Shown here one piece after another: positions 437 to 57,100 of a stretch of DNA of 64,000 nt. The notes under the pieces are model-generated. The model had not been told where the DNA came from. It saw only the letters and a list, made by a program, of their open reading frames with translations, and ran no database searches. Origin of the DNA: Nitrospira sp. (GTDB taxonomy: Bacteria; Nitrospirota; Nitrospiria; Nitrospirales; Nitrospiraceae); assembly GCA_020853775.1 (NCBI GenBank), contig JADYYH010000054.1, positions 1 to 64,000 of the forward strand, read 5' to 3'. The position numbers and the translations under genes were made by a program. The stretch's first letter is position 1. The number at the start of each line of letters is the position of its first letter.

Positions 437-1852
437 ATGAGCCAGTCACATATTCTCGTGATCGACGATGATCCAGCAGTTCGCCAACTGCTGGCGGAAA
501 CACTCACGAGTGAAGGCCATCAGGTCACGGTCATGTCGAGCGGGATGGACGGGGTGGAAGCGGTGAAGGATCAACCGGTGCACGTTGTGCTGACGGATCT
601 TCAAATGCCCGGGATCGATGGACTGGAAACGATCGACAGAATCTCAAAGATCGACTCCAAAGTGATTGCGATCGTCATGACGGGATACGGGACGGTTGAT
701 TATGCCGTGCGAGCGATGAAAGCCGGCGCGTTCGACTTCATCACCAAACCATTTGAGCCCGATACGGTTGCGGTCGTCGTGCGAAAGGCATTGGACGTCT
801 ACAAACTCAAACAGGAGAATCACCTGCTGCGAAAAGCGGTGCGAGATCAGTACCGCCTTGAGCATTTGGTGGGCACCAGCGCGCCGATGCGGATGGTGCT
901 GGATTTCGTCGAGAAGGTGGCTGACAGCGATAGTACCGTCTTGATCGAAGGGGAGAGCGGAACCGGTAAAGAATTGATCGCGCGCATGCTGCATTTTAAT
1001 AGTATGCGACGAGATCGCCCGCTCGTGCCGGTCAATTGTGGAGCGATTCCTGAAACGTTGCTGGAGTCGGAGCTGTTCGGCCATGAAAAGGGAGCGTTTA
1101 CCGGAGCTGCACACACACGACTCGGTCGATTTGAACTGGCTCATGGCGGCACCATCTTTTTAGATGAAGTCGGCGAAATGAGTTTGCCCTTGCAAGTGAA
1201 GCTGCTGCGGGTGTTGCAGGAGCGATCCTTCGAACGCGTGGGTGGAACCAGGACGATTAACGTGGATGTGCGCATTATTGCCGCCACCAATCAGGATTTG
1301 GCGCAAGCCGTACAGGAACGCCGATTCCGGCAGGACTTGTATTACCGCTTGCATGTCATTCCCATTCATATTCCTCCATTACGGGAACGTCGCAGCGATA
1401 TCCCGCTCCTCGTCAATCATTTTATCGCGCAATTCAATCAACTGCGCCGGACCGAGATTCTCGGCATGGAGCCTGATGCACTGGTTCGCATGACCGAAGA
1501 GGAATGGCCGGGAAATATCCGTGAACTTGAAAATATGATCGAGCGCCTCTGCGTGTTGAAGAAGCGGGGCATGATCACGTTAGCCGATCTTCCTGAGCGT
1601 TCGTTAAAAACGGCAGGTGGAAAGGCGGTAGAGGCCCCCGAGCAGTTTATCCGCTTCTCGGAAGATGGCATCAATTTGACGAAGGAGTTGGAGCATTACG
1701 AGAATCGTCTTATCGGGGAAGCGTTGCGCAAAGCCAACGGCATAACCAGTCGAGCCGCTCAGTTGCTACAGGTCAACCGCACGACGCTGGTCGAAAAACT
1801 AAAACGGAAAGGTTTTGATCCAAAAAGTCACGGGTATTCCATTCAAAACTGA
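437..1852 (+). CDS. sigma54-dependent response regulator, FleQ/FlrA-like HTH
   Basis: Cytoplasmic transcription activator of 471 residues that should open sigma54-RNA polymerase promoters. The receiver domain (about 5-120) has acidic residues D10-D12, phospho-acceptor D54, T82 and K104, so it looks phosphorylatable. The AAA+ domain (about 143-380) has Walker A GESGTGKE at 172-179, the sigma54-contact loop GAFTGA at 219-224 and Walker B FLDE at 241-244. The C-terminal Fis-type helix contains NRTTLVEKLKRKG, which resembles the recognition helix of FleQ/FlrA flagellar master regulators. Those proteins usually lack a working receiver, so this could be a FleQ-like or a general NtrC-type regulator. 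ATG is preceded by AGAGGAG. It probably regulates the flagellar operons downstream, together with the second activator at 5479. Confidence 0.93.
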   Translation: MSQSHILVIDDDPAVRQLLAETLTSEGHQVTVMSSGMDGVEAVKDQPVHVVLTDLQMPGIDGLETIDRISKIDSKVIAIVMTGYGTVDYAVRAMKAGAFDFITKPFEPDTVAVVVRKALDVYKLKQENHLLRKAVRDQYRLEHLVGTSAPMRMVLDFVEKVADSDSTVLIEGESGTGKELIARMLHFNSMRRDRPLVPVNCGAIPETLLESELFGHEKGAFTGAAHTRLGRFELAHGGTIFLDEVGEMSLPLQVKLLRVLQERSFERVGGTRTINVDVRIIAATNQDLAQAVQERRFRQDLYYRLHVIPIHIPPLRERRSDIPLLVNHFIAQFNQLRRTEILGMEPDALVRMTEEEWPGNIRELENMIERLCVLKKRGMITLADLPERSLKTAGGKAVEAPEQFIRFSEDGINLTKELEHYENRLIGEALRKANGITSRAAQLLQVNRTTLVEKLKRKGFDPKSHGYSIQN

Positions 1853-2024: not shown

Positions 2025-4196
2025 GTGCGATTCTTATCCCCTACATCCCACTGTGCCGCTGCTTGGACAAGCTACTGTGTCAGTTGGCTTCTGCTCGTCG
2101 GAATAGGCACTGCCACAGGCGCGGGCGGGTTACCCACGATGCGACAAGAGTTGCCGGCTATGATGCCGGAGCCAGCGGAACTCGTGCGTGGAGTATTGCC
2201 CGATCCAGGACCTCGATTTGAGCGCCTGCCGGAAATCCCGGAATGGAAGCAGTTCGAACAAGGCATGGCCCTCTACCATCATGGGCAATACCTTGAGGCT
2301 CGCCTCCATTTCACCAACATGCTTCGCGATCGACGCGAGTCGCCGCTCAGATCATCCATCCAGGCGTTTCTCGCTGAAAGTACGCTTCAGAGTCACGACC
2401 CTGATATCCGCCCGCTCGACATCATCGATCAGTACAAAACACTGATGCGCGAAAATCCCCAATCGACGAACACCAAGCGGGCAGCTTGGCGCATCGGGGA
2501 TGTGTATCGCGTCGAAGGGTGGTTTCAGGAAGCCCAGATTGCCTACCAGCATGCACTCTCCCTCTCGGAAATCGACTCATTTGATGCCAACCGGGCCATG
2601 CTTGGCTTGGGTTATGTCCAGCGCGGATTTAAGAATTGGAAGGAAAGCACACAAGCGTTCGATCATGTGTTGAAACGCACCGTTGACCCCACGCTCCTGG
2701 TATCCGCCTCCCTGGGTAAAGCGCACAGCCTCTATCGATTGGGCCGGATGAGGGATGCCGATGCGCTCTACGAAAGTATCGCCAGCCGATGGTCGGCCGC
2801 GCTTCGAAGTGATGCCTTTGCGCTGCTGCGGTATGCCGATACTGCCGGGGAAGCCAAGCGGGGCCCGGTCATGCGAGAGCAGTTGCTGCATTTTTACAAT
2901 CTGTATCCAAACCGGCCTGAAACCCCGTTCGTCCTGACCTACCTTGCCGACAGTTATAAGGAAGCCGGCCGTTGGGCTGAGTCCAGTATTTTCTACGCAG
3001 CGTTATTGAGCCAATACCCCGAGGCTCCGATGGCTGCGACGGCCCGCCTTCGGTATGCGGATGTACAGGAACATCTGGATCCGGAGGGGGAGGAGATCAA
3101 TCTTCGACATACCATCTCGGCGCATCTCGCAAATATTCCACTGAAACCGGGTGAGATGCTCAGTCCTCGCCGGCTGTTCGAGCAGAGCGCCAAAGACTAT
3201 GACAGTTCAGTCGTCGGCAGCGAGGCGTTGTTTCACCTGGGAGAAACCTTGGAGAAGGCGGGCAAACCGGAAGACGCTCTCCGTGCCTATGAACAGGTCG
3301 TGCTACGCACTGGCAAGTTTGACAATGATCCCTGGCCGGAAAAAAGCGGCGCGCAGTTGGTGCGTTTCCTGCGCCCTCGCCTGGAAGCAGCCCTCAAGGC
3401 AGAAGATGATTTCGAGCTGATCAACCTCTTCCATCGACATGGCCCATTTGCCGACAAGTTGTACGCCGGTACGGAGCTGCTGCTCACAATCGCAGAAGCG
3501 CACCGCCGTTTGGGGTTTCCCGTAGAGTCGGCACGGCTGTTCCAGTCCTTGGTTCGTGATCCCAAAGCAGAGAAGGTGCATGAAACGGCGTTGATGGGAC
3601 TGGCCTACAGCTACATGGAACAAAAAGATATGCGGGCCGCGCGGGCGGTGTTTGAGCGGTACCGGCTCGAATTTCCGACCGGCCGGTTTTCAGGAGAGGC
3701 GTTACGAGGAATTCTGAATTCGTTTGAGGGCGAAGGGAACCTCGCGGCGCTGCTCAAGCTTGGCAAGCAATGGTTGACTCACAATCCGCGGCACCCTGAT
3801 CGGACGATGGTGCAACTGAAACTCGCGGCGGTGTTGGCGCAATCAAAGCAAGACGCGGAAGCGACAGCCATCTACGACGGCCTGATCAAAGCCCGTCAGG
3901 AACTTCCCGCCGCGGACCTGCTGCGGCATGCCGATGCGCTGGCTCGGCTGAAACGCCAGGCACTGGCACTGGCCATGTACAAGGAAGCGGTCGTCGCCGG
4001 GCTCGAGCCGGAGCAGGAGGCATGGGCTCAACTGCAGATGGTCCAGCTGGCTCGCGGAGTGAAGCGTGAGGATTTTGCCCGGAACGGGCTGCGCGCACTC
4101 AGTGTGAATCCCGACAGTCTCGTCCGCCGCATGGCGGCCATGCTGGACAATGAGTTGCCGGAACCGCCGGCCGAGAAACGGGAGAAAAAACCGTGA
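2025..4196 (+). CDS. secreted TPR-repeat protein
   Basis: A 723-residue protein of unknown specific function built mainly of tetratricopeptide-like helical repeats from about residue 75 to 690, for example the segments near 75-110, 160-200 and 300-345. The N-terminus carries a hydrophobic stretch (about residues 16-33, ending ATGAGG) that looks like a Sec signal peptide, so it is probably periplasmic. The first codon is GTG and has no clear Shine-Dalgarno sequence; a sigma54 site ends only 13 bases upstream. The next in-frame ATG (2139) would remove the signal peptide, so GTG is preferred. The stop overlaps the GTG of the sensor kinase gene (GTGA), showing translational coupling. Its position inside a two-component operon suggests a scaffold or sensory role in flagellar assembly, which is inferred only. 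Confidence 0.8.
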   Translation: MRFLSPTSHCAAAWTSYCVSWLLLVGIGTATGAGGLPTMRQELPAMMPEPAELVRGVLPDPGPRFERLPEIPEWKQFEQGMALYHHGQYLEARLHFTNMLRDRRESPLRSSIQAFLAESTLQSHDPDIRPLDIIDQYKTLMRENPQSTNTKRAAWRIGDVYRVEGWFQEAQIAYQHALSLSEIDSFDANRAMLGLGYVQRGFKNWKESTQAFDHVLKRTVDPTLLVSASLGKAHSLYRLGRMRDADALYESIASRWSAALRSDAFALLRYADTAGEAKRGPVMREQLLHFYNLYPNRPETPFVLTYLADSYKEAGRWAESSIFYAALLSQYPEAPMAATARLRYADVQEHLDPEGEEINLRHTISAHLANIPLKPGEMLSPRRLFEQSAKDYDSSVVGSEALFHLGETLEKAGKPEDALRAYEQVVLRTGKFDNDPWPEKSGAQLVRFLRPRLEAALKAEDDFELINLFHRHGPFADKLYAGTELLLTIAEAHRRLGFPVESARLFQSLVRDPKAEKVHETALMGLAYSYMEQKDMRAARAVFERYRLEFPTGRFSGEALRGILNSFEGEGNLAALLKLGKQWLTHNPRHPDRTMVQLKLAAVLAQSKQDAEATAIYDGLIKARQELPAADLLRHADALARLKRQALALAMYKEAVVAGLEPEQEAWAQLQMVQLARGVKREDFARNGLRALSVNPDSLVRRMAAMLDNELPEPPAEKREKKP

Positions 4197-5482
4197 TCAG
4201 GCAGGAGGGCGACGCCACCAACAATGACCTGCTGACGCGCGCGTTTCGCGATTTTGATCAGGCTGCCACCGTCTTGCAGCAGTCGTATGACGCATTAACG
4301 ACGCGCCTGCAGCAGATGGATCTCGAACTCGCGCAAACGAATGCCAGTCTCCGCGAGCATCTCCGTGAAACCGAAGAAATGCGCGCGCATGTGACGGCCG
4401 TCTTGGAATCCTTGGACACCGGCGTCATCGTCGCCGATTCAGAGGATGTGGTGGTGCGATGCAATCATTCCACGGAGCAACTGCTGGGCGTCCCGCAGGC
4501 GCAATTGCGAGGGCGCCATGTGGGCGAGGTGTTAGCAGAGATCCGTAAGGACCATGGAGAGTACCCGCTCGTGCTTCCCAGCGGCGTCACTATTGCCTTG
4601 TCACAAACGGACTTGACCGACGAGTCGGGCCACCTGATCGGGAAACTCGTCCTGATCCACGATGTCACGCGCATTCGCCAGCTTGAAGACCGGTTGCAAC
4701 GGCGCAATCGGTTGGAAGCCATGGGGCAGATGGTGGGCAGCATTGCCCATGAAATTCGAAATCCCTTGGGCAGTGTCGAATTGTTTGCCTCCATGTTGCG
4801 TAAGGATCTTCGCGACCAGCCTCAACTGCGGAGTTATGCGGAACATATCTCCATGGCGGTTCAATCCATGGATCAGCTGCTCTCCAATCTGCTTGTGTAT
4901 ACCAGGCCGGACTGTTCGCGACTGGGATGGCATCACACGGAATTGCTGATACGCGACGTTCTCACACTGGCCAGTCACGCCATTCCACCGGATTCTGTTG
5001 AGGTCCGGTGCCAGGTGCATCCGCTGGTCCCTCAGCTCTGGTGTGATGGCCCGAAAATGAAGCAGGTCCTCTTAAATTTGGTCTTGAATGCGGTTCAGGC
5101 CATGCCTAAAGGCGGAACGCTTACCCTTACGGCCTGTCCTGCTCCCCCCGAAATCCAGGAATCGCCGGCAGTCCACCTCAGAGTGAGCGACACCGGGACG
5201 GGTATTCCCGCCGAATTGCAGTCGAGGGTATTTGATCCGTTTTTCACCACAAAAGATCAGGGGACCGGTTTAGGCCTCGCCATCGTGCACGCAGTGGTCG
5301 AAGCCCATCACGGTCGAATTGATGTCGAAAGCTATCACGGGCAGGGCACCTCGTTTCTCATCACGCTGCCGCGAGGCCCCATGCAGACGCCTTCGACGCC
5401 TGCTCCGCTTGCCACCGTGTCCAGCCGTTCGGAGAGTGCACATCAGATTACGGGCATCACAGAAGAAAAGAGGTACGAATGA
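4193..5482 (+). CDS. PAS-domain sensor histidine kinase, FlrB/FleS-like
   Basis: Soluble histidine kinase of 429 residues without membrane segments, as in the FlrB/FleS/NtrB group. Order: an N-terminal coiled coil (about 20-68), a PAS domain (about 65-165), a dimerisation/phospho-acceptor domain with IAHEIRNPLG and H186, then a HATPase domain with an N box near 295-305, DTGTGIP at 333-339 and GTGLGLAI at 357-364. It starts at GTG overlapping the TPR gene stop and ends in an ATGA overlap with the regulator gene at 5479, so kinase and regulator are co-translated partners. By analogy with FlrBC/FleSR, it should phosphorylate that regulator to turn on hook and basal-body genes; the signal it senses is not visible. 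It may also serve the receiver-FliH fusion at 10909. Confidence 0.92.
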   Translation: MIRQEGDATNNDLLTRAFRDFDQAATVLQQSYDALTTRLQQMDLELAQTNASLREHLRETEEMRAHVTAVLESLDTGVIVADSEDVVVRCNHSTEQLLGVPQAQLRGRHVGEVLAEIRKDHGEYPLVLPSGVTIALSQTDLTDESGHLIGKLVLIHDVTRIRQLEDRLQRRNRLEAMGQMVGSIAHEIRNPLGSVELFASMLRKDLRDQPQLRSYAEHISMAVQSMDQLLSNLLVYTRPDCSRLGWHHTELLIRDVLTLASHAIPPDSVEVRCQVHPLVPQLWCDGPKMKQVLLNLVLNAVQAMPKGGTLTLTACPAPPEIQESPAVHLRVSDTGTGIPAELQSRVFDPFFTTKDQGTGLGLAIVHAVVEAHHGRIDVESYHGQGTSFLITLPRGPMQTPSTPAPLATVSSRSESAHQITGITEEKRYE

Positions 5483-6897
5483 GCGCGCAACCAGCCTTAC
5501 AAGGACCATCAGCCGCTGCCGAAGAGGCCCGAATGGTCTTGATCGTTGATGACGAACCCTCGATGCGGACGGCGTTGTCGGAAACGGTGCGTCGCATGGG
5601 CTATCAGGTGCGGAGTGCCATCGACGGGGCGGATGCCATCGAGCAGGTGGAGCGGTTGAAACCCTGGTTGGTGGTGACCGACTTGAAAATGCCGCGCCTG
5701 AACGGGCTCGAACTTGTCAAAGCGCTCAAACAGAAAGCGCCCCACACCTTCATCATTCTCATGACTGCGTACGGGACTGTCGAAACTGCCGTGGAAGCCA
5801 TGAAATATGGCGCGAATGATTACATTTTAAAACCCTTCTCCACCGACCTCGTCGAGCGGGTGATCCTCAACCTGCACGCCAGTACGGAGCCGGATGAGCA
5901 GGATGCTCCTGCAGCGCTGGAAGCGCGCGCGATCTTGACGCAAGACCCGGGCATGATCCGCCTGCTCACAACTCTCGAGGGTGTCGCGGCCAGCCAAGCC
6001 ACGGTACTGATCAGCGGCGAAAGCGGTACGGGCAAAGAGTTATTAGCGCGCTACATTCATGCGAGGAGTCCTCGCGCCCATCGCCCCTTTGTGGCACTCA
6101 ATTGCGCGGCGCTTCCGGACAGTTTGCTGGAGAGCGAGTTATTCGGTCATGAGCGCGGCGCGTTTACCGGGGCGATTCAGAAAAAGTTGGGCAAGTTTGA
6201 AATGGCCCATACCGGCACGTTGTTTCTGGATGAAATCAGCGAAATGAATTTGGGCCTGCAATCGAAATTGTTGCGGGTACTGCAAGAACGGGAGGTCGAT
6301 CGCATCGGAGGGCGCGAACCGGTCCCGGTCAATATCCGTGTGATCGCGACGACGAATCGCTCGCTGTACCATGAGGTGACACAAGGGCGCTTCCGGGAAG
6401 ATTTGTTTTACCGCTTGAATGTCTTTCCCGTGACAGTGCCGCCGCTCCGTGAACGACCGGGTGACATTCCGCTCCTTGCACGACATTTTCTGCGTTCTTC
6501 GGCGCAGCGCAACGGGCTGACCGTGCCGACGCTGTCCGAGCGCGCCATCGCCGATCTCCAACAGCGGGCATGGAAGGGAAACGTCCGCGAGCTCGAAAAT
6601 GTCATGGAACGCGCCATTTTAGTGACAACCGGAAACGCGGTTGACGTCGATCACCTGATGCCGGGGGACGGAACGGTCCCCATCCAGCCGATCGAAACCG
6701 TGGAAACGCTCGTGGCCCCGTCTGCGCACGGGTCGCTGTGGGAAATGGAACGGGACCTGATCTTCAAGACCCTGGCGCGAGTGAAAGACAATCGTACTCA
6801 TGCCGCCAAGGAGTTAGGCATTAGTATTCGCACGCTGCGCAATAAATTACGGGAATATCGTGATCTGGGGTATCAGGTCGAGGCGGAAAAGTCCTGA
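5479..6897 (+). CDS. sigma54-dependent response regulator, FlrC/FleR-like
   Basis: A 472-residue NtrC-type activator. The receiver has D24-D25, phospho-acceptor D68, T96 and K118. The AAA+ domain has Walker A GESGTGKE at 180-187, GAFTGA at 227-232 and Walker B FLDE with D251-E252. The Fis-type helix-turn-helix near the C-terminus contains THAAKELGISIRTLRNKLRE. Gene order kinase-regulator directly before flgB matches FlrB-FlrC and FleS-FleR operons. Start by ATGA overlap with the kinase gene. Its likely targets are the sigma54 sites seen before flgB, fliK, fliL and flgF. It differs from the activator at 437 in the DNA-recognition helix, so the two probably bind different operators. Confidence 0.94.
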   Translation: MSAQPALQGPSAAAEEARMVLIVDDEPSMRTALSETVRRMGYQVRSAIDGADAIEQVERLKPWLVVTDLKMPRLNGLELVKALKQKAPHTFIILMTAYGTVETAVEAMKYGANDYILKPFSTDLVERVILNLHASTEPDEQDAPAALEARAILTQDPGMIRLLTTLEGVAASQATVLISGESGTGKELLARYIHARSPRAHRPFVALNCAALPDSLLESELFGHERGAFTGAIQKKLGKFEMAHTGTLFLDEISEMNLGLQSKLLRVLQEREVDRIGGREPVPVNIRVIATTNRSLYHEVTQGRFREDLFYRLNVFPVTVPPLRERPGDIPLLARHFLRSSAQRNGLTVPTLSERAIADLQQRAWKGNVRELENVMERAILVTTGNAVDVDHLMPGDGTVPIQPIETVETLVAPSAHGSLWEMERDLIFKTLARVKDNRTHAAKELGISIRTLRNKLREYRDLGYQVEAEKS

Positions 6898-9906: not shown

Positions 9907-10908
9907 ATGGCCATGAACAAAGAGCTTAGCGGCGCGCAAAAAGCCGCCATTCTGCTTCGAGCGATCGGCGAGGAGGCCGCGGCGGCGGTGATGAAAACGC
10001 TCGATCCGAAAGATATTCGGAAGCTCGGCGAGTTCATGAAAGAAACCGCGAATATCACCAAGCAGGAAGAAGACAGCGTGATCGCGGAATTCGAACAGGC
10101 CAGTTCCAACGGCGAGGTGCAATTCGAAGGACGGGAGTTCATGGAGGCCATTCTCAAAAAAGCGCTGGGCTCGGAAAAGGCCGCGCGGATGATGGAGTCC
10201 CTGAATACCAAGACCTATCCGGGCATCGACGCGCTGAAATGGGTCGATGCTCGCACGGTGGCGCAAATCCTCAAGATCGAGCATCCGCAGACCATTGCCG
10301 TCTGTCTGGGCCAAATGGAGGCCGAGCAGGCGAGCGCTGTCCTGGCGCTCTTGCCGGTGCATTTGCATGCCGACGTCTCGCTTCGGTTGGCCACCATGCA
10401 AGAGGTGCAGCCTGAAGTGCTGGCTGAGCTCAGCGACAGTCTGCAGGAGATTCTGTCGGCTTCGATGGGCATGTCGAGCATGTCGGTCGGCGGAGCGGAA
10501 CTCATGGCCGAGATCCTGACCCGCGTGGATAAAAATACCGAAGGCGCGATCATGGCCAAAATCACCGAACGCGATCAGGCCCTGGCGGAAAATATCCGCG
10601 CGTTGATGTTTGTCTTCGACGACCTGGTGGATCTGGACTCTCGCGGCATGCAGGAGCTCATGAAGGAAATCAGCAAAGAAGACCTTCCGATCGCCTTGCG
10701 GGGGGCTACGCCGGAAATCAAAGAAAAATTTCTCAAGAACATGTCGAGCCGCGCGGCAGAAATGCTCAAAGAGGACATGGAGACACGCGGGCCTGTCAAG
10801 GTCTCGGATGTCGAAAAGGCCCAACAGAACATTCTCAAAGTCTGCCGTAAACTCGAGGAAGAAGGCCGTATCGTCATCGGCGGCGGCGGAGGCGAGGAGT
10901 TGTTGTAA
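9907..10908 (+). CDS. fliG: flagellar motor switch protein FliG
   Basis: Rotor protein of 333 residues that couples stator torque to the rotor and switches direction. It starts with GAQKAAILLRAIGEE, has the EHPQT motif at 125-129 in the middle ARM domain and the torque-helix region MFVFDDLVDLDSRGMQELMK in the C-terminal domain. The glycine-rich tail GGGGGEE is slightly unusual. The following receiver-FliH gene begins on the base right after the fliG stop, so the two are tightly coupled. Confidence 0.97.
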   Translation: MAMNKELSGAQKAAILLRAIGEEAAAAVMKTLDPKDIRKLGEFMKETANITKQEEDSVIAEFEQASSNGEVQFEGREFMEAILKKALGSEKAARMMESLNTKTYPGIDALKWVDARTVAQILKIEHPQTIAVCLGQMEAEQASAVLALLPVHLHADVSLRLATMQEVQPEVLAELSDSLQEILSASMGMSSMSVGGAELMAEILTRVDKNTEGAIMAKITERDQALAENIRALMFVFDDLVDLDSRGMQELMKEISKEDLPIALRGATPEIKEKFLKNMSSRAAEMLKEDMETRGPVKVSDVEKAQQNILKVCRKLEEEGRIVIGGGGGEELL

Positions 10909-11958
10909 ATGGGGAGCACTGCCGCGGGTACGGGCGTTTCGATGGCGGTTTCGCCCGAGTCAGAGAAGAAGTTGTCGCCGCGGGCCATCTTGATCGTCGA
11001 TGACGAGCCCTCTATCTGTCTCCTGCTATCCGAGATGCTGGAGCCCACGGGACATCCTGTCCTGACCGCCGGCTCGGTACAGGAAGCCTTGACTCATCTG
11101 CGCACCCGCTCCGTGGCTGTCGTGATTGTGGATGTGCAGTTGGGCGGCGCAGACGGCATAACCTTTCTCCAGCAAGCGCTCGACATCGATAATCGCCTGC
11201 TCGGCATCGTGATGACCGGCCACGGGAACATTGAGCTGGCCGTCCGGGCCATGAAGTCCGGGGCAGCGGATTTTCTCACCAAACCGTTTCAAGTCGAGCT
11301 GGTCCGGCTGGCCGTGTCCAGATTGCTGGAACTCTACCGGTTGCGACAGGAAAATACCGTGCTCACCCGCACGTTGATTCGCTCCGGGAACATTCAATTA
11401 CGTCCCGTGCCGCTGGCGGATTTCAGTCGCGGCAATCGACCGTTTGGAACGGAGGATCTCACCGAGTTTGAGCGGGGAGTGGCGGAAGGTGAAACGCGTT
11501 CGACCCAACGGGTGGCTGCCGCGCGACAGCGGGAGCAGAGCCTGGTGACGTCGTTGATGACGCGCTTAGAGGAAACGTGGCAGCATCTGCATGAGACGGT
11601 CGAAGAAGAAATCGCCTCCCTCTCGTTCATGATTGCGCACAAGGTCGTTCGGGATGCCGTCACCGAAAAACGCGACGTGATCGTGACGCAAGTCCGAACC
11701 GCCCTCGCGCATCTGCACGAAAGCGGTCTCGTGCGAGTCCGGGTGCATCCCTCGGATCTCGCCGTCCTCGAATCGGCACGCAACGCCCTCAGCCAGACGC
11801 CGCACGGACTGTTGACCTTAAAGTTCGAGACAGACCCCGCCATCGGTCCTGGAGGATGTCTCATTCAGGCGCAAAGCCTGTTGATCGATGCGACCCTGGA
11901 CACGCAGTTGTTGCGGCTGGGCGAAGCGTTACGAAAGCGGGATGCCGGTGAAGCTTAG
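10909..11958 (+). CDS. fliH: receiver-FliH fusion, phosphorylatable regulator of the export ATPase
   Basis: A 349-residue fusion. Residues about 25-145 are a complete CheY-like receiver with D31-D32, phospho-acceptor D75 (VVIVDVQLGG), T103 (VMTGHG) and K125 (LTKPF). A linker runs to about 185. Residues about 186-349 match the FliH/YscL family: a heptad-rich segment (FERGVAEGE, then helices to about 235), then EEIASLSFMIAHKVVRDAV, VRVRVHPSDLAVLES and GCLIQAQSLLIDATLDTQLL. FliH normally forms a dimeric stalk that holds and restrains the ATPase FliI and anchors it to FliN through N-terminal tryptophans. Here the only tryptophan is W224, so that anchor is missing and the receiver takes its place. 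It lies at the normal fliH position between fliG and fliI and no other fliH is seen. The frame is continuous, with no sign of frameshift. Phospho-control of export is inferred. Confidence 0.88.
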   Translation: MGSTAAGTGVSMAVSPESEKKLSPRAILIVDDEPSICLLLSEMLEPTGHPVLTAGSVQEALTHLRTRSVAVVIVDVQLGGADGITFLQQALDIDNRLLGIVMTGHGNIELAVRAMKSGAADFLTKPFQVELVRLAVSRLLELYRLRQENTVLTRTLIRSGNIQLRPVPLADFSRGNRPFGTEDLTEFERGVAEGETRSTQRVAAARQREQSLVTSLMTRLEETWQHLHETVEEEIASLSFMIAHKVVRDAVTEKRDVIVTQVRTALAHLHESGLVRVRVHPSDLAVLESARNALSQTPHGLLTLKFETDPAIGPGGCLIQAQSLLIDATLDTQLLRLGEALRKRDAGEA

Positions 11959-13255
11959 CGAACGATTGGAACATGTCGAACCGCTCTCAGTCACGGGTAG
12001 GGTCGCCCAGGCCGTCGGCATCGTCATTGAAGCTTCTGGCCCCTTCACCTCCGTCGGGGAAGTGTGTGAAATCACGCGTGAAGGAGGGCACGGATCCGTG
12101 ATGGCGGAAGTCGTGGGCTTCCGGGAAGATCGCGTGTTGCTGATGCCATTGGGTGAGATGCAGGGCATCGGACCGGGCAGTCGCGTGGTCATGAAGGGAC
12201 ATGTCGCATCCGTCCCCGTCGGTCCTCAGATGCTGGGGCGCATCTTTGACGGCCTCGGACATCCGCTGGACGGGCTGCCGCCTCTTCGCAGCGACGTGCG
12301 GGTTCCCTTGTATGCGGCCCCGCTGAATCCCTTGCATCGAGCCAGAATCACGCAGCCCGTCGATCTGGGTATTCGGGCCATCAATGCCTTGTTGACCTGT
12401 GGCCAAGGTCAGAAGATCGGGGTGTTCGCAGGATCGGGCGTGGGCAAAAGCGTACTGTTGGGCATGATTAGCCGTTATACGCAAGCGGACGTCCGGGTCA
12501 TCGCCCTCGTCGGCGAGCGGGGCCGCGAAGTCAAAGAATTCCTGGAACGCGATCTGACGCCTGAAGCCAGGGCCCGCTCTATTGTCGTCGTGGCGACATC
12601 CGATCAACCTCCGCTGGTCCGCATCCGGGGCGCGCTGGTGGCGACGGCCATTGCGGAATATTTTCGCGATTGCGGCAAACACGTCCTGCTCATGATGGAC
12701 TCTCTCTCGCGATTGGCCTACAGCCAGCGTGAAGTCGGATTGGCTATCGGGGAACCGCCGACCACGAAAGGGTACACGCCGTCCGTGTTTGCCGTCTTGC
12801 CGAAACTCCTGGAGCGGGTCGGCCCGGCACAAAGCGGCGGCAGCATTACCGGCCTCTACACCGTCCTGGTCGACGGCGACGATCTCAACGATCCTGTCGC
12901 GGATGCGGTACGATCCATTCTCGACGGACATATCGTGCTGTCCCGGGAACTCGCCGCGCGCAATCATTTTCCCGCCATCGATATCCTCCAGAGCACCAGC
13001 CGGGTCATGCGTGACATCGTGACGCCCGCACATTATGCCGCGGCGCGGTTAGTCCTCGAACGCACGGCTCTGTATCGACGATCCGAAGATTTGATTACTT
13101 TGGGGGCGTACAAGCCCGGCACGAGCAAAGAGCTCGATAAAGCCGTGTCCGCCCATGACGGCATCACGGCGTTTCTGCGCCAAGAAACCAAGCAGGCGGT
13201 CGGATTGCCGCAATCGATCGACGCGCTCCTGACGCTGGCAGGGACGATTCAATGA
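11942..13255 (+). CDS. fliI: flagellum-specific export ATPase FliI
   Basis: Cytoplasmic ATPase of the flagellar type III exporter, 437 residues, related to F1-ATPase beta. Walker A is AGSGVGKS at 163-170; the Walker B region reads HVLLMMDSLSRLAYSQREVG, followed by GEPPTTKGYTPSVFAVLPKL. The ATG at 11942 overlaps the end of the receiver-FliH gene by 17 bases, and is preferred to an upstream in-frame ATG (11888) because family members begin at about this point. The stop overlaps fliJ (ATGA). Partner of the FliH domain and FliJ, which form the ATPase-stalk complex. Confidence 0.96.
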   Translation: MPVKLSERLEHVEPLSVTGRVAQAVGIVIEASGPFTSVGEVCEITREGGHGSVMAEVVGFREDRVLLMPLGEMQGIGPGSRVVMKGHVASVPVGPQMLGRIFDGLGHPLDGLPPLRSDVRVPLYAAPLNPLHRARITQPVDLGIRAINALLTCGQGQKIGVFAGSGVGKSVLLGMISRYTQADVRVIALVGERGREVKEFLERDLTPEARARSIVVVATSDQPPLVRIRGALVATAIAEYFRDCGKHVLLMMDSLSRLAYSQREVGLAIGEPPTTKGYTPSVFAVLPKLLERVGPAQSGGSITGLYTVLVDGDDLNDPVADAVRSILDGHIVLSRELAARNHFPAIDILQSTSRVMRDIVTPAHYAAARLVLERTALYRRSEDLITLGAYKPGTSKELDKAVSAHDGITAFLRQETKQAVGLPQSIDALLTLAGTIQ

Positions 13256-13692
13256 ACGTGACGGTCCTCAGGACCTACGCGGTACAACTGGAGGAAGTGG
13301 CGAAACTGGAACTGGCAGAACTCAGTCACGCCCTACAGCAAACGGTGGATCGGATGGCCATGTTGGAATCACGCGCCAAAGAAGACGCCGACCGGTATCT
13401 GCTTCAGGCCCGTGCCGGCAGCACCGTCGATCAGATGTATGGCCACCTGGATGCGATGGATCAGGCGATTGCGGCACGGAAACACTTGGAGCAGGTCTTG
13501 GCTGCCGAACAAACCAAGATGGAACAGAAACGCGCTGAACTGCTCGACGCGATGCAGTATCGTAAGAAATTGGATCTGCTTGAGGCTCGCGCCGCGCTGG
13601 ACCTCCGCCGCCGCCGTGAGCGCCAGGATCAGCACCTGCTCGATGAACGCGCCTGGAGACGAAGCCCATTGCATAAGGGGAAACGGGGATGA
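13252..13692 (+). CDS. fliJ: flagellar export stalk protein FliJ
   Basis: A 146-residue helical, charged, coiled-coil protein without membrane segments. Sequence similarity to FliJ is weak, as usual, but size, heptad character (for example LEEVAKLELAELSHALQQT) and the place directly after fliI with an ATGA overlap identify it. FliJ is the central stalk in the FliI hexamer and links it to FlhA. The stop overlaps the next gene start by 4 bases. Confidence 0.88.
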   Translation: MNVTVLRTYAVQLEEVAKLELAELSHALQQTVDRMAMLESRAKEDADRYLLQARAGSTVDQMYGHLDAMDQAIAARKHLEQVLAAEQTKMEQKRAELLDAMQYRKKLDLLEARAALDLRRRRERQDQHLLDERAWRRSPLHKGKRG

Positions 13693-36879: not shown

Positions 36880-37770
36880 ATGAGAGTCGCCGACCAACAA
36901 ATGTACAACACCCTGCTCGGCAATCTCCAGCGTTCACGGTTGCAGATGCTGACCTCTCAGGAACAGGTCTCCAGCCAAAGACGGGTTTCGACTCCCGAAG
37001 ACGATCCGAGCTCCTATGGCCAGATTGTCCTCGACAAGTCCGCCTTGTCCCAGACCAAGCAATGGATTCGCAATATCGATTTCGGGACGTCGCGAGTCAA
37101 CGCCGCCGACCAGGCGCTCGGCCAGGTCCAGACCCTCATCACACGCGTACGAGAATTGACCATTCAAGCCAGCAGCGATACGACCTCCGCGGAAGGCCGC
37201 CAATCGATCGCCAAGGAGGTCCGCCAACTTCAACGGCAATTGGTCCAATTGGGGAATACCGAAGTGGCGGGACAAGCGGTGTTCGGCGGGACGAAAACCA
37301 ATGCGACGCCCTACGTGATTACCACCGGCGATACGGTCACGTATCAAGGCAACACGGAAACCCAGTCGATCGCGGTGGGTGAAAATCAGACCGTCCAAAT
37401 TCTGATTCCCGGCAGCAGCATTTTTACCGGCGGCACCACGAACATGTTCGATTCACTCCGGGACTTGCTCACGGCGCTCGAAAGCAACAATCGCTCGGGC
37501 ATTCAAACAGGAATCGGCAATCTTGACCTGGCGACGGCGCAGATCAGCGATGCGCAGGGGACGGTGGGGGCGTTAGCCAATCGTTTGCAGGTCACCCACG
37601 ATGCGCTGGACACGGCGACTCTGACGATTTCCAAGGCCATCTCCGACAATCAGGATGCCGATCTCGCCACGGCCATCAGCCAATTGAGCCTTCAGCAGGT
37701 CGCCGTGCAGGCCGCCAGCCAAACCTTCAGCAAGATTTTTGATTCCTCGTTACTCAACTATCTGCGGTAA
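36880..37770 (+). CDS. flgL: hook-filament junction protein FlgL (HAP3)
   Basis: A 296-residue flagellin-like junction protein: MRVADQQMYNTLLGNLQRSR, the region QVSSQRRVSTPEDDPSSYGQ, VNAADQALGQVQTLITRVRE; C-terminal helix LSLQQVAVQAASQTFSKIFD and ending SLLNYLR. It caps the FlgK ring and seats the filament. No flagellin gene follows; csrA does. Confidence 0.95.
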   Translation: MRVADQQMYNTLLGNLQRSRLQMLTSQEQVSSQRRVSTPEDDPSSYGQIVLDKSALSQTKQWIRNIDFGTSRVNAADQALGQVQTLITRVRELTIQASSDTTSAEGRQSIAKEVRQLQRQLVQLGNTEVAGQAVFGGTKTNATPYVITTGDTVTYQGNTETQSIAVGENQTVQILIPGSSIFTGGTTNMFDSLRDLLTALESNNRSGIQTGIGNLDLATAQISDAQGTVGALANRLQVTHDALDTATLTISKAISDNQDADLATAISQLSLQQVAVQAASQTFSKIFDSSLLNYLR

Positions 37771-38688: not shown

Positions 38689-41529
38689 TCACTGCGAGTC
38701 AGTGGGATTGATCTGGCGGGATAAGACCGCCACTAGTTCCTGGACGGTGCGGTCCAAGCGGACAAGCAGGCCGGGGGCTTCGGTGAGAGTTCCCAGGCGT
38801 CCCGACGCTTCCAGCTGACTCGCCAGCAACACCACATCGGGTGCGCACAAATTCCCCGCCGTGCCTTTGAGACTGTGAGCGGCTCGCTCGAGCGCTACGG
38901 CATCACCCTGGCCGATGGCGGACTCGATTTCCTTCATCATGACGCTATGGCGGTCCAGGAACAGCCGAATCAATTGATCGAACAATTCGGCGTCTCCACC
39001 GATATTCGCCAGCATGGCGCCCGCGTCGAACACGCGCGCGTCTGTCTTGCTGATCTCGCGGGCAGGAGCGGGGGGGGCCACATCGGCAGCGGCCTTCGCC
39101 GGGGCCCACCGTTGCAGGATGAGGCCGAGATCATCCGTCTTCACCGGTTTGGTGAGATAGTCGTCCATTCCGGCGGCCTTGCAGCGTTCGCGGTCGCCGG
39201 GCAACGCATTCGCCGTCAGTGCGATGATCGGAATATGCGCGCGCGTGCGCGACGCGTCCGGTCGTTCTTCCTGAGCACGGATGAGCCTCGTGGCTTCGTA
39301 CCCGTCCATCGTCGGCATCTGGCAATCCATGACGATTGCCGCATAGGATTCGCGTTCGAACGCTGTCACGGCGTCCTGCCCATTGGACACCACGTCCGGT
39401 TGATATCCGAGGCGGTCCAACATGCGAACGGCCAGCTTCTGATTGACCACATTGTCTTCGGCGACCAGAATTCGCGGGCGGGGGGATTGTTCGGCCAGGG
39501 TGTGGCGCGTGATGAGTGTCGGCGAGATCGGTTGACCCTTGCCGGTACCCGCCTCTGCGGTCGGTGCCTTGTGCTGCAATCCGAACACCACGCGAAGGCA
39601 CCCTTGGAGCTGATCGTGCCGGACCGGTTTCGTCAGATAGGCGGTGAATCCGGCGCGGCGCGCCCGTTCCGCATGACCGGGCTGAATCAGCGAGGTCAAG
39701 ACCACCAGTCGCACGCCGGCGCCATGTTGGTTTGCCCGGATGTCCTGGGCCAATTGGAGCCCATCCTTGCCGGGCATCAACATATCGAGCACGGCCGCAT
39801 CATAGGGTTCACCCTTGGCCGCAGCCTGCTCCAGGAGCTCCATCGCTTCAGCGGCATTCCGGGCCTGCCCATCGCGCATGCCCCATCCCGAGACCAGGTG
39901 ATGCAGAATCGTTCGATTCGACTCATTGTCATCCACGATCAGAATGCGGCGACCGCTCAGCTCGGCCGAGGGAACGATCGCGGGTGAACAGACGGCTTGT
40001 TTCTGGAAGAGGGCCGTGCACCAGAAGGTGGTCCCTTCGCCAGGACGGCTGCGGAGGCCGACCTGACCGCCCATCAGTTCGACGAGTTGTTTCGAAATGG
40101 CCAGGCCGAGTCCTGTGCCGCCGTATTTGCGGGTCGTGGAACTGTCGGCCTGGGTAAAGGCCTGAAACAGGCGTCCCTGTACTTCTTCGCTGATGCCGAT
40201 GCCGGAGTCCGTTACTTCAAACTTGATCGACACCCCGTCGGGCGTGTCGCTCTCCAGGAACGCCTGTAGCGTGACTTCGCCTTGCTCGGTAAACTTCACC
40301 GCGTTTCCAACAAAGTTGGTCAACACTTGCCGCAGACGGCCCGGGTCTCCGCGTAAGGCATTGGGCACGGCGGCGTGAACCAGCCCGGTAATTTCCAGAC
40401 CTTTCCGCTGCGCCCGCTCCGCAAACTGCGAGAGCACGTCTTCCACCGTGGTGCGCAATTGGAAGTCGAGCATCTCGAGTTCCAGTTTCCCGGCTTCGAT
40501 TTTGCTGCATTCCAACACATCATTGATCAGGGAGAGCTGCGCTTCGCCGCATTGCTGAATCGTTTGGGTAAACGAGCGTTGCTCCTCCGTCAGCGAGGTA
40601 TCCAGCAGCAGGCTGGCCATGCCGATTACCCCGTTCATGGGCGTGCGCAACTCATGCGTGATCATCGCGAGGAAGGACGACTTCGCGCGGGCCGCGGCCT
40701 GCGCCTGCTGCAACGCCTGGTCCAATTGGCGATTGCTCTCTCGAAGATGATCGGCGGTCGCGTTCAGGGCGCGATGCGTCGCATGGACCTCACCGAGGTC
40801 GATGCCATAGGCGCGCACGAGGTGATTGCTGGGAACAGGGCACAGCGTCCAGCTGTAACAGGCCTCGCCTCTGACGACTTCCTGTGACGTCAGCGTGCGT
40901 CCTTCCAGAAGGCATGTGGCCACCAGCGCGGGAAGATTTTCGGGAAGGATGTCCGGTTTTCCGTTCGGGTCATATCCGAATCGGCACAGCACCTCCACCA
41001 TCGCAGGATTCACATACAGGATATTGCCGTCCCGGTCGATTTCGACAATCGGGTAGGGGCTTTCGTCAGCCACGGTGGCGAGACGGTCCCGATCCTTTTC
41101 CAACTCGCATTCCCGTGAGATATCCCTCAGCGTCAGAAGGGTGGAGACGGACGGAATGCCTGAAAGACGGAGCTGCTCCCACTCGATCACGGTCAGTGCC
41201 GCCGCCTCATCTGTCTCGCAAGCTTGGTCCTCAACCGGTGCGCCCACGTGACCGGCCTGGAGTTTCAGGACGCCGGTTGAATGCAAGGAGTCGTTCAGTT
41301 CGAGCGGCTGCCCGATCAGATCCGACAACATCTTTCCGGCACAATCGGCCGCCGATCGGCCGAGCAGCCTGGCAGCGATCCGGTTGGCGAAGACGATGCT
41401 GTGATCAGGAGCCAGCAGACAGATTCCCAGCGGGACCGCATCCCAGAGGAGGCCCATTGCTTCAGGCGTCGGCCTAAACCCCGTCGGGGGTTGTGAGTGA
41501 TCTGAACGGGACTGTGATGGACGGCTCAT
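38689..41529 (-). CDS. hybrid sensor histidine kinase (PAS-PAS-HK-REC-REC-HPt)
   Basis: A 946-residue soluble hybrid kinase. PAS domains at about 25-135 and 148-240, a short coiled coil, HisKA with [18 protein letters not shown] and H292, HATPase with the N box ([11 protein letters not shown], about 405-415), DSGIGI at 441-446 and GTGLGLAI at 471-478, receiver 1 (about 527-650, D582), receiver 2 (about 686-810, D735) and an HPt domain with [11 protein letters not shown]885. Architecture as in BarA-like phosphorelay kinases, but with no membrane segment. It lies three bases after the HD-GYP gene on the minus strand, so the two are co-expressed. The HPt could pass phosphate to the HD-GYP pathway, to the receiver-FliH fusion or to other regulators; targets cannot be read here. 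Confidence 0.93.
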
Positions 41530-41531
41530 AC

Positions 41532-42782
41532 TTACGCCCCGCCTATGGCGACATCGAGGTATTGTGGGAGATCGATCTGTTCCTGCCCTGGATCCAAGGC
41601 ACGGAGGATCGTGCGCGCCGGCTGATCGGCAGCCTGGTTTTGGAGATCGCTCTCGATGGGAGGATTCTGGATCTCCCCATCGGGACCTCTGATGATCCGG
41701 ATACGCGGTCGCAACCGGTCTTCATGATTCAGCCCGACGACGACCGCGCACTCGTTGGTATTGAGCTTGATGAGGCTTCCGAGCGGGTAGACGCCCAACA
41801 TCTTGATGGCGACTTCCACCAGATTTTTGTCGTATCGGCCTTTGGCCCCCAACACGAACAGTTGTCGAATGGCGTCGTGAGGCAACAACGGCGCGCGACC
41901 GTAGCGCGACGTGACCAGATCGTCATACGTATCCGCCAGGGCCATCAATTGCGCCAGCGGCGAGAGGGCGCCCGCTTTCACCATCTTCGGAAAACCGCTT
42001 CCATCCTGACACTCGTGGTGCTGCGCGATGATGTGAGAGACCGTCTCGGGGAGCGAATCGATTTTCGACAAGACTGTGGCGGCCAACTGCGGGTGTTGCC
42101 GCATCAGCACCTGTTCCTGCTCCGTGAGGGGCGAGGTTTTCCGGTACACATTGCGCGGCAGCCGGACGAATCCGATATCGTGCAGTAATGCCCCGAGCCC
42201 GAGCGATTCCATGTCACTTTCCGTGCAGCTGTTTTCCACAGCCAGGATGAGCGTGAGCACGCACACGTCCATGCCGTGATTGGCAAGCGTTCCATCGAAG
42301 CGGCGCATTTTATCCAGGCAAAACTGGATCATCATGGCTTCCGGTTGTTCGATGATCTGCTTCAACAGTTTGCTCACCACCGGTTTGAGTGTCGCGATCT
42401 TCGGGGGCTGGCCGGCTTCAATGTCGGTAAACACCCGTTCGACGGCTTGCATGGCTTCGCGATAGGTCGCCGCCGCTGCGGCGGCAGGCGAAGCATGGCC
42501 GTTCGAAGGTGCGTCTATCGTGTCAGTCTGGGCCGACGAAGCTTCAGGCACAGAAGGAGGCACCTCCGGGGGAGCGACAGGGGCTGCCCCTACGTCCAAT
42601 CCTCGTTCCGTATCAATCGTGACGATCTGAATCCCGTGCCGTTTCAGTTGCACGATGTCATCGGGATTGGAGACCAGCCACTTATGGAGGAGAAACGGCG
42701 TCCTGTACCAGGGTTGATCCAAACCCGCGATAAACATGCCGACGGTGAGTTGTTCTATGGGGATACGTTTTGTCGAAGCCAT
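41532..42782 (-). CDS. HD-GYP-type domain protein with DUF3391-like N-terminus
   Basis: A 416-residue protein. The N-terminus (about 5-60, [17 protein letters not shown] and [15 protein letters not shown]) is the DUF3391-type domain often found before HD-GYP. A Pro/Ala linker follows (65-105). The HD-GYP region (about 155-340) has H169, LLHDIG at 199-204 and [11 protein letters not shown] at 255-265. The usual HDIGK lysine is phenylalanine (HDIGF) and GYP is GFP, so c-di-GMP phosphodiesterase activity is likely but not certain. ATG at 42782 is chosen as the family begins there; a TTG eight codons upstream is an alternative. A sigma28-like promoter lies upstream on the minus strand. Linked to the kinase at 38689. 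Confidence 0.88.
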
Positions 42783-42851
42783 GTCAGAGTTATGCCCAAT
42801 CCTCAAGAAGCCTGTGATGAGAGCAAATAGGGAACGATTTCTGTCCTTTAC

Positions 42852-54175: not shown

Positions 54176-54196
54176 CCTGTGGAGTGGAAAGGCCTC

Positions 54197-57100
54197 ATGA
54201 CATCACGTCCACCCACGAAAGTTCTTCTCTTGCAGCTGGAGTTTCCCACGTGGAAACAAGCCCGCGCGTGGACGTATCCGGCCTGTTTTGGAGTCGCTGA
54301 AGGCTTACGAGCGAGCGGTGTGGAATGTGTCACACTGCCCCTCATTGCCGATCCGCCCTATTCCAGCGCCGCCTGGCTCACGCACATGAAGCGGATCATC
54401 AACGGCCAACGTTTTGACCAGGTGTGGGTGTGGCTGGTTCATGCACCTCTCGATGACGCGATTCTCAATTGGTTGAGCGAGTTGGCGCCGATCCGGGTCG
54501 GCATCATCATGGAATCGTTGCAGTACAGCGAAGACGATTACGCCTGGGCCCCTCATCTTCGAGCGCGCCAGGGATTCGTTGAACAACAGGCCCGTGCGTT
54601 GACTCACGTGCTCGTTCCCGATGAATGTGATGTCGAGCGAACGGCTGCACGCACCGGCGTTCCTGCTCTCTGGTGGCCGCCGATGGTGCCTGAACGTTTC
54701 ATCAGCACCCCGTCGAGCCCTGCCGCTCACCGGGTCGGCGTCTTCCACGGCGTTCCCTACGGTCCCCGTGAACAATGGATCCATCGGATCCATCATCCCG
54801 CACTGAAATCTCGTCTGACCTTTGCCCGTTCATCGGCTCCAACGTTGTTTCAACAACTGTTCGATCGGCTGCAGCAATCGGCCATCCAGCGTCTTGCCAC
54901 GCCTGTCGGGATGTCTGCCGGTGAGCTCACTCACTATACGACGATGTGGCAAGAGCTGCGCGAAGGCGAATTCACAGAGTGGATGGCCCAATTGCCACAA
55001 TGGGCGGCGATCGTCAATCTCCCCAGTCTGGCAAGATTTTTCGGGGGGCGCGTCTTTGAAGGGATCGCTGCCGGTCGCCCGATGGTGTCGTATGCGGTAC
55101 CAGGCCATCCAATGAACAACGGGTTGTTTGTGGAAGGGGAGGAGATCCTCTATTTTTCGCCAAGCCGGCCGGAGTCTTTAGCGGAAGTCCTGGACCGTTT
55201 ATTATCGAACGACGCATTGGCGGCACGACTGGCCGGTAACGCGCAGCGCAAACTTCAGACCTACCACACCAGCGAGCGACGACTTGCGGAGACACTCGTT
55301 TGGATTCAGTCGGGAACCAAGCCTGTCTATGGTGAACGAGAGACCGGTGCCGCCTACGCACTGTCTTCCGCAAAGGCGGGATCAGCCTGGGCAAATGTTC
55401 CGGGCCACGCCGGTTCCACTATTGATCCGCAATACCCGGCAACCGCCGGACGGACGGACACCACAATCTTTGTCCTGACGGTCGGCGACCCTGCCTATCC
55501 CGCCTGCAAGGCGGCCGTGGATGCGCAGCAGGGTGGACCCTTTCACGTCGAGATCATCCGCAATGTCGCACCCTTCAGCGCGGCGGCCCAACGCATGATC
55601 GCAGACTGTCGAACTGAGTTCTTTATCCAGGTCGATGAGGACATGATCCTCAACTCCGACGCGGCGTCGAAGATGGCGGACCTGATGCGCCGTGCCCCGG
55701 CCGACATCGGCATGATCTGTTTTCATCTCTACGATGCGGATCGCGCCTGTCGGATCCAGGGCATCAAGATCTATCGCACGGCGGCCATGAAGCCCTTCGC
55801 CTTCCAGAATGTCAAAGCGAGCGAGATGGATCTGCTCGAACAGATGGGCCAACGAGGTGTCCGGTGGGTGCTGCATCCGGAGGTCAGGGGTCGGCATGGG
55901 ACGCTGTATACGCCGGAGACCATCTATCGCCGCTATAAGACGATGTATGAGAAAGACATCCGGCAGTGGAATACCCTGACCTCGGATATCCGTCGGAAAG
56001 CCGACCAGTTTCGAGCGACAGGAGACGTGCTTGCGCTCTTTGCACTGCTCGGGGCCGCGCATGGAATCATCGAAGGACCGCGATCGGCTGACCGAGAAAA
56101 GGATGCGCGGGCGTATGGATTGGACGAACTGGAGATCTTCGCCCGGCTCTTCCAGCAAACGCCGCCCGCAAGCCAACCTTATGATCCCAAGCGAAGCGGA
56201 ACGTCCGTATCCAATAGCCCGTTAGCGCCCGAGGAGGTGCGTTGGTTGGGGGAGACGACGTTCGAGAAGGCATCCGAGAAGCAGGCACGGCAGGGTGCTG
56301 CCTCGGCACCGCAGGCGCAGCGGCAGCCTGCCGCGCGAATTCTCATTATCACCCCGTATTTTTGGCCCTCCGTTGGCGGTGTCGAAAAAGTGGCGGAAAG
56401 CTTAGCCATCGGCTTGCAGTCACGTGGACATGCCGTCGAGGTGGCGACTTATGCGCTCACTGAGCGCTCGGCGACATCGCATCGTGGCATTCCCATCATT
56501 GATCTCACATTCCCGGCCGACTTTGAAACGACCAGTCCCTATTCCATGCTGGAAGTGAAACGCCTGATCGAGTCGGGGCAATACGGCTGCTGTATTCTCC
56601 TGGGCGCCCCGCTGCATCTGATGTTTTATGCCGCGCTCGCCATTCCGAAGGATCGTCCGGTGCGGTTCATTCTTCAGCCGACCATCAACAAAGAGATTGC
56701 TGAATCGTTGGAGGGAAGCGAGCAGGGGCGCACCATGTTGTCTCAATTGGGGCAACGCGTGAACGCCGTCGTCACGTTCGGCGGCGATGGATACGATGAA
56801 CAGTTCTTTCGAGAACGCCGCATTCCGACCTGTGTGATTCCGAACGGCACCCCGGCCCTGGCGCCCAAGGCGGATTTCAGGCAACGCTACGGGATTGCCC
56901 GTGAAACCTTCCTCGTGATCCACCTCGCCAATCTCTACAAGGTCAAAAATCATCTGGGATTACTCGATTCCTTGGACAACCTGCCAAGCGACATTCAACT
57001 CGTTTTGATCGGGAATGACACCCATGAAACCGAGTATGTCGAGGCCGTGAAGGCCCGCCTCGCCGCACGACCGGATGTCCGGCTGCTTGCAGGATTGGAC

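Follow-up and report, generated by a model that had tools for sequence, protein, structure and literature searches.

The single fliH gene of a Nitrospira genome, examined here within a window of 64,000 nucleotides (the whole stretch of DNA that was analysed), encodes a FliH protein preceded, in the same polypeptide, by an NtrC-type receiver domain (REC). This combination of receiver and FliH in one protein, hereafter REC-FliH, is a new variant of FliH; no description of it was found in the open-licence literature searched, a body of work outside which most subscription journals lie. The receiver is confined to one clade of Nitrospira among the genomes sampled, probably stems from a sigma-54 activator encoded in the same flagellar locus and may place the type III export apparatus within reach of two-component signalling.

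The REC-FliH gene (10909..11958, forward strand) is a single uninterrupted frame that runs from ATG to stop and is translated into 349 amino acids. The receiver spans residues 27–134 (10987..11310), as delimited by Pfam PF00072, the nearest structures and conservation, and is followed by a coil at residues 135–156 (11311..11376) that ends with LLELYRLRQENTVLTRTL and is recognizable both in the BLASTP alignment with the activator RR1, described below, and as a helix in the structural model. The subsequent linker, residues 157–212 (11377..11544), apparently keeps the ancestral FliH N-terminal tract, judging from the model and from N-termini compared by eye. The FliH C-terminal domain, which by family is the FliI-binding part, occupies residues 213–336 (11545..11916) and is assigned by PF02108 and by the structure 5B0O. 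A receiver followed by a FliH domain in one frame is what the original prediction had read, and scoring the C-terminal half as FliH was a check that it proposed; the Pfam matches agree with it on both counts. Response_reg (PF00072) matches residues 27–134 with an E value of 2.7e-22 and 79.5 bits against a curated cut-off of 30.2, and FliH (PF02108) matches residues 213–336 with an E value of 8e-22 and 78 bits against a curated cut-off of 24.1, each score thus being more than twice its cut-off. Furthermore, the C-terminal 142 residues match, at E 8e-5, the FliH whose structure was solved as 5B0O. NCBIfam returns NtrX/AtoC/NtrC-type receiver matches together with FliH/YscL matches; all fall short of the full-length equivalog cut-offs, which is what a fusion should give. 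The FliH model NF004270, 223 residues long, scores 73 bits against a cut-off of 180; the last two thirds of the model alone match. An equivalog score is not essential for FliH membership here, given the Pfam match and the gene position.

An AlphaFold monomer model built with 23 sequences has a low overall pLDDT of 62.7. The receiver is modelled with pLDDT values mostly between 65 and 90, and a helix extends from alpha5 through residue 147; a low-confidence linker (148–180), a long helix (186–230) and the FliH alpha/beta domain follow. The best Foldseek matches of the model are the receivers of NtrX, NtrC1 and DctD.

The gene lies at the fliH position between fliG and fliI, as had been predicted. 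Gene order along the locus is RR1, an NtrC-type sigma-54 activator at its head (437..1852); a TPR protein whose position between RR1 and the kinase gene is conserved (2025..4196); a FleS-like histidine kinase (4193..5482); a FleR/FlbD-like sigma-54 response regulator, RR2 (5479..6897); flgB, flgC, fliE and fliF; fliG (9907..10908), supported by profile matches that include TIGR00207; REC-fliH; fliI (11942..13255); and fliJ (13252..13692), the genes with coordinates all being on the forward strand. On the 3' side of fliJ are fliK, flgE, fliL, fliM, fliN, fliP, fliR, flhB and flhA. The TAA stop of fliG directly abuts the REC-fliH ATG at 10909, and at the other end REC-fliH overlaps fliI by 17 bases if fliI begins at ATG 11942, which is more plausible than the listed open reading frame start at 11888. 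Packing this tight could not accommodate a separate receiver gene, and the single frame together with the abutting fliG stop rules out both such a gene and a frameshift at 10909. The locus had been said to contain no other fliH, and a profile search extends this statement to the whole genome, in which no second FliH exceeds the Pfam cut-off and three stray matches have E values of 0.07 to 0.75. REC-FliH is therefore FliH by domain, gene position and uniqueness in the genome, its front part has the fold and the active site of a receiver, and the protein most plausibly serves the flagellar type III export apparatus as its functional FliH. Elsewhere in the window, a hybrid histidine kinase with a PAS domain, two receivers and an Hpt domain is encoded on the reverse strand (38689–41529); it adjoins an HD-GYP/DUF3391 gene (41532–42806), and a flagellin gene (36880–37770) is close by. 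A very large open frame of 2195 residues is found at 54179–60766 on the forward strand.

All genomes of the window's genus in which FliH is present (28 of 29, counting G000) carry the fusion, in frames of 338–349 amino acids, and the complete Candidatus Nitrospira defluvii chromosome (FP929003.1) encodes the same architecture at locus L044; hence the fusion is not an assembly artefact. A census of FliH frames in 396 genomes of the phylum revealed lengths of about 340 amino acids or more in the Nitrospira family f1, and mostly 200–280 amino acids in the sister family f2 and the other classes. When fetched loci were tested for a receiver, 90 harboured REC-FliH, all of them in family f1 and distributed over seven genera; they correspond to 68 distinct sequences, some loci coming from the same genomes. 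A further 50 tested loci have no receiver on FliH, and these include three f1 genomes of the genera g3 and g6. In a tree of concatenated FliF, FliG and FliI, the REC-FliH genomes form one clade (37 of 37, support 1.0), the receiver-less g3 and g6 constitute its sister group and f2 falls outside. This topology indicates that the receiver was gained once, in the ancestor of a large Nitrospira clade, and no loss was seen among the FliH-bearing genomes of that clade. One genome, G007, has two REC-FliH loci on different contigs (L006 and L032), probably the same as L034 and L047, whose identities with the window protein are 96% and 78%; it represents either a mixed metagenome-assembled genome or a genome with two flagellar loci.

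Beyond the phylum, four others were sampled with about 840 genomes in all, and inspection of their longest listed FliH frames brought no REC-FliH to light. The sample comprises 247 genomes of the phylum of G405, a Desulfarculaceae genome (143 of them with FliH), 199 of Acidobacteriota, 95 of Methylomirabilota and 299 of Pseudomonadota. Frames of about 300 amino acids upward, in Pseudomonadota among the matches listed, were inspected one by one as candidate fusions: neither the 21 loci from the G405 phylum nor the 40 from the other three phyla contain a receiver, and the extra length consists of long linkers or stop-free upstream sequence.

The receiver has a close relative at the head of the same locus. 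BLASTP aligns residues 22–156 of REC-FliH with residues 1–135 of RR1 at 39% identity (E 3e-32), ungapped, and the alignment runs through the coil (LRQENTVL/LKQENHLL), whereas with the FleR-like regulator at 5479 the receiver alone aligns (34%, E 9e-17). Maximum-likelihood trees recover the FliH receivers as monophyletic (UFBoot 98), inside the RR1 receivers and apart from those of FleR. The group of FliH receivers and part of RR1 has a UFBoot value of 92, and that of all RR1 of the order a value of 76; tree support for an origin from RR1 is accordingly moderate to good, and support for the exact branching within RR1 is moderate. RR1 occupies the same position in REC-FliH genomes, in the receiver-less g3 and g6 and in f2, and being conserved with and without the fusion it must predate it. 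The receiver and coil of RR1 are thus the probable source of the front part of REC-FliH. The adjacent FleR-like regulator was considered as a donor and is ruled out by the tree and by the recognition residues discussed below. The order RR1–TPR–FleS–FleR–flgB and onwards is kept in two families of the order, RR1 usually lacking a neighbouring kinase; its own role is presumably flagellar. In the genus g7, RR1 (L235:1855-3330, G205) has lost the canonical acidic pair (VENEE), which suggests a degenerate receiver.

The original prediction had named the kinases at 4193 and 38689 as candidate phosphodonors. The kinase at 4193 adjoins the FleR-like regulator and is also present in relatives without the fusion. 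Positions in alpha1 and in the loop after beta5 are known from other systems to govern which kinase a receiver pairs with; in the FleR-like regulator M36, A39 and A104 (FliH numbering) are invariant, whereas the FliH receiver and RR1 have mostly I/V36, L39 and G104. The kinase at 4193 is therefore improbable as a donor for REC-FliH. Two complete genomes from the window's genus (g1) were read, and neither has a kinase beside RR1; G264 and G320 have a hybrid kinase and a free receiver at that place. A search by homology to the hybrid kinase of G264 singled out no cognate kinase, several paralogues in the genome under study being similarly close to it.

The active site is complete in the window protein, as had been described: the acidic pair for Mg2+, D31 and D32 (codons 10999–11004), is present together with the phospho-acceptor D75 (11131–11133), T103 (11215–11217) and K125 (11281–11283). 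Across the 68 distinct sequences, D75, T103, K125 and P126 are invariant; position 31 is D in 66 and E in two; position 32 is D in 59 and replaced in nine (six A, two H, one G), the losses being located in a subgroup of g2 and in g5. Replacement of D32 by A, H or G is seen in some of L052–L055, L142–L144, L147, L153, L157 and L163, all with D75, T103 and K125 kept. Since D32 is half of the acidic pair that binds the metal, some lineages may have a reduced capacity for phosphorylation or none at all, and these nine losses are the main warning against presuming it in every lineage. Estimates of dN/dS within the window's genus are nearly identical for the receiver (0.068) and the FliH domain (0.069) and reach 0.087 for the linker: the receiver is under strong purifying selection, equal to that on the FliH domain. 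REC-FliH could plausibly be controlled by phosphorylation.

Receivers of the NtrC family dimerise via a coil and pair when phosphorylated, and the coil transmits the change (NtrC1/DctD type). FliH functions as a dimer, which binds FliI and recruits it to the C-ring by way of FliN (PMC3139655). The two properties combined lead to the prediction that phosphorylation would change the geometry of the FliH dimer. The likeliest reading, which we put at about an even chance, is that REC-FliH is a phosphorylation-switchable FliH dimer, in which phosphorylation alters dimer geometry and thereby the activity or docking of FliI; the kinase input, the switching of the dimer and its effect on FliI are inferred. 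On such a scheme, the receiver and its dimerisation coil would have been added once to FliH by copying the front of RR1. D75 would be phosphorylated by a histidine kinase whose original partner was probably RR1; the receivers of the FliH dimer would alter their pairing, and the change would run through the coil into the FliH stalk. The dimer's grip on FliI or its release, or the docking of the complex at the C-ring and export gate, would be altered as a consequence, and the signal that controls flagellar transcription would also gate the export of flagellar parts. More tentative, at a little below an even chance, is the broader proposal that the export ATPase complex of Nitrospira is under the direct control of a two-component phosphorelay, that FliH phosphorylation gates secretion and that one kinase coordinates transcription and export, the last element following from the copying of the receiver from the locus's own sigma-54 activator.

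The same observations allow a reading that dispenses with signalling, in which the receiver acts only as a structural spacer or as a module for constitutive dimerisation, and its active site is kept by the constraints of the fold. In its favour, an NtrC-type receiver and its coil together form dimers, at least two lineages no longer have D32 and the homology search pointed to no particular kinase. Nevertheless, D75, T103 and K125 never vary in the 68 sequences, though they serve phosphorylation rather than folding, and the constraint on the receiver is as tight as that on the FliH domain; we regard this reading as unlikely.

The original prediction envisaged the receiver as a replacement for a tryptophan-containing N-terminus by which FliH docks on FliN. 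Such a motif is indeed absent from REC-FliH. FliH of f2 begins with a K-W-S-K-V-type motif; in several other lineages of the phylum FliH starts with an L-S-K-I-I-K-type sequence, and many FliH proteins of the phylum lack the tryptophan motif, which is not defining for them. In the receiver-less f1 genera g3 and g6, FliH starts with Q-D-F-A-x-I-L-K, also without tryptophan, and the residue was probably lost before the fusion, as these N-termini suggest. REC-FliH itself has V-L-K-x-A-V-V-R-x-G and then a motif that resembles, by eye, the rest of the FliH N-terminus, so the FliH N-terminal tract apparently persists past the coil and just the first few residues are displaced. Of the earlier argument, then, the missing tryptophan stands, its attribution to the receiver is weakened by g3, g6 and the retained tract, and replacement of the FliN anchor by the receiver is possible.

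This bears on a further alternative, also put forward at the outset, in which the receiver would dock on the C-ring at FliM/FliN under the control of its phosphorylation, much as CheY does. In known flagella it is FliN that places the FliH complex at the C-ring (PMC3139655), REC-FliH lacks the N-terminal W-S-K-V motif of f2 and FliM in this locus retains a LSQEEIDALMGG type N-terminus. Against these points, the best matches of the FliH receiver are the receivers of NtrC, NtrX and DctD, and it does not group with CheY; being NtrC-type and nested among RR1 receivers, it gives docking by analogy with CheY no sequence support. The lack of tryptophan in g3 and g6 and the apparent survival of the N-terminal tract likewise count against it, and we consider it quite improbable.

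Very unlikely, in our estimation, is a role of the receiver as a phosphate sink or competitor for the kinase of RR1, whereby unassembled REC-FliH would report the assembly of the export apparatus to transcription. The copying of the receiver from RR1 of the same locus, partner-recognition residues closer to those of RR1 than to those of FleR, and the conservation of RR1 at the head of the flagellar locus are consistent with it; however, sinks are usually free receivers, the search singled out no cognate kinase, and sequence cannot separate a sink from the switchable dimer. The prospect that the fusion is an artefact or chance event (a frameshift, a misassembly or an internal start yielding a normal short FliH) is negligible: AGGAAA does precede a GTG at codon 151 in the window, but this codon is GTG in just 24 of the 68 sequences, the absence of any conserved start codon near the junction speaks against an internal start, and the same fusion is present in many genomes, including complete chromosomes.

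Regulation of flagellar export is known mainly via gene expression, secreted anti-sigma factors and hook-length control. If REC-FliH is a switchable dimer, flagellum building in nitrite-oxidising Nitrospira may be controlled directly by signalling, beyond gene expression. A receiver in the ATPase regulator, kept through the diversification of these globally important nitrifiers, points to post-translational two-component gating of type III export. D75 offers a specific testable residue, and the sister genera without the receiver provide a natural before-and-after comparison.

Compared with known systems, REC-FliH resembles other FliH proteins (PF02108, 5B0O) in its C-terminal domain, its position between fliG and fliI and its single copy, and differs from all FliH examined outside its clade in carrying an N-terminal receiver and an NtrC-type coil. 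Its C-terminal half is homologous to YscL/SctL (HrpE family) of injectisomes, with NCBIfam matches below cut-off; REC-FliH, by contrast, is encoded in a flagellar locus, and we know of no receiver in the YscL/SctL family. CheY acting on FliM/FliN is likewise a phospho-receiver that works on the flagellar motor, a likeness that is one of functional analogy alone, since the receiver of REC-FliH belongs to a different subfamily, is covalently fused and is tied to export rather than rotation. With the NtrC-family regulators (NtrX, NtrC1, DctD and RR1 itself) REC-FliH shares the receiver fold, the full active site and the coil that follows; whereas their output is an AAA+ sigma-54 activator with a DNA-binding domain, that of REC-FliH is a regulator of the type III export ATPase.
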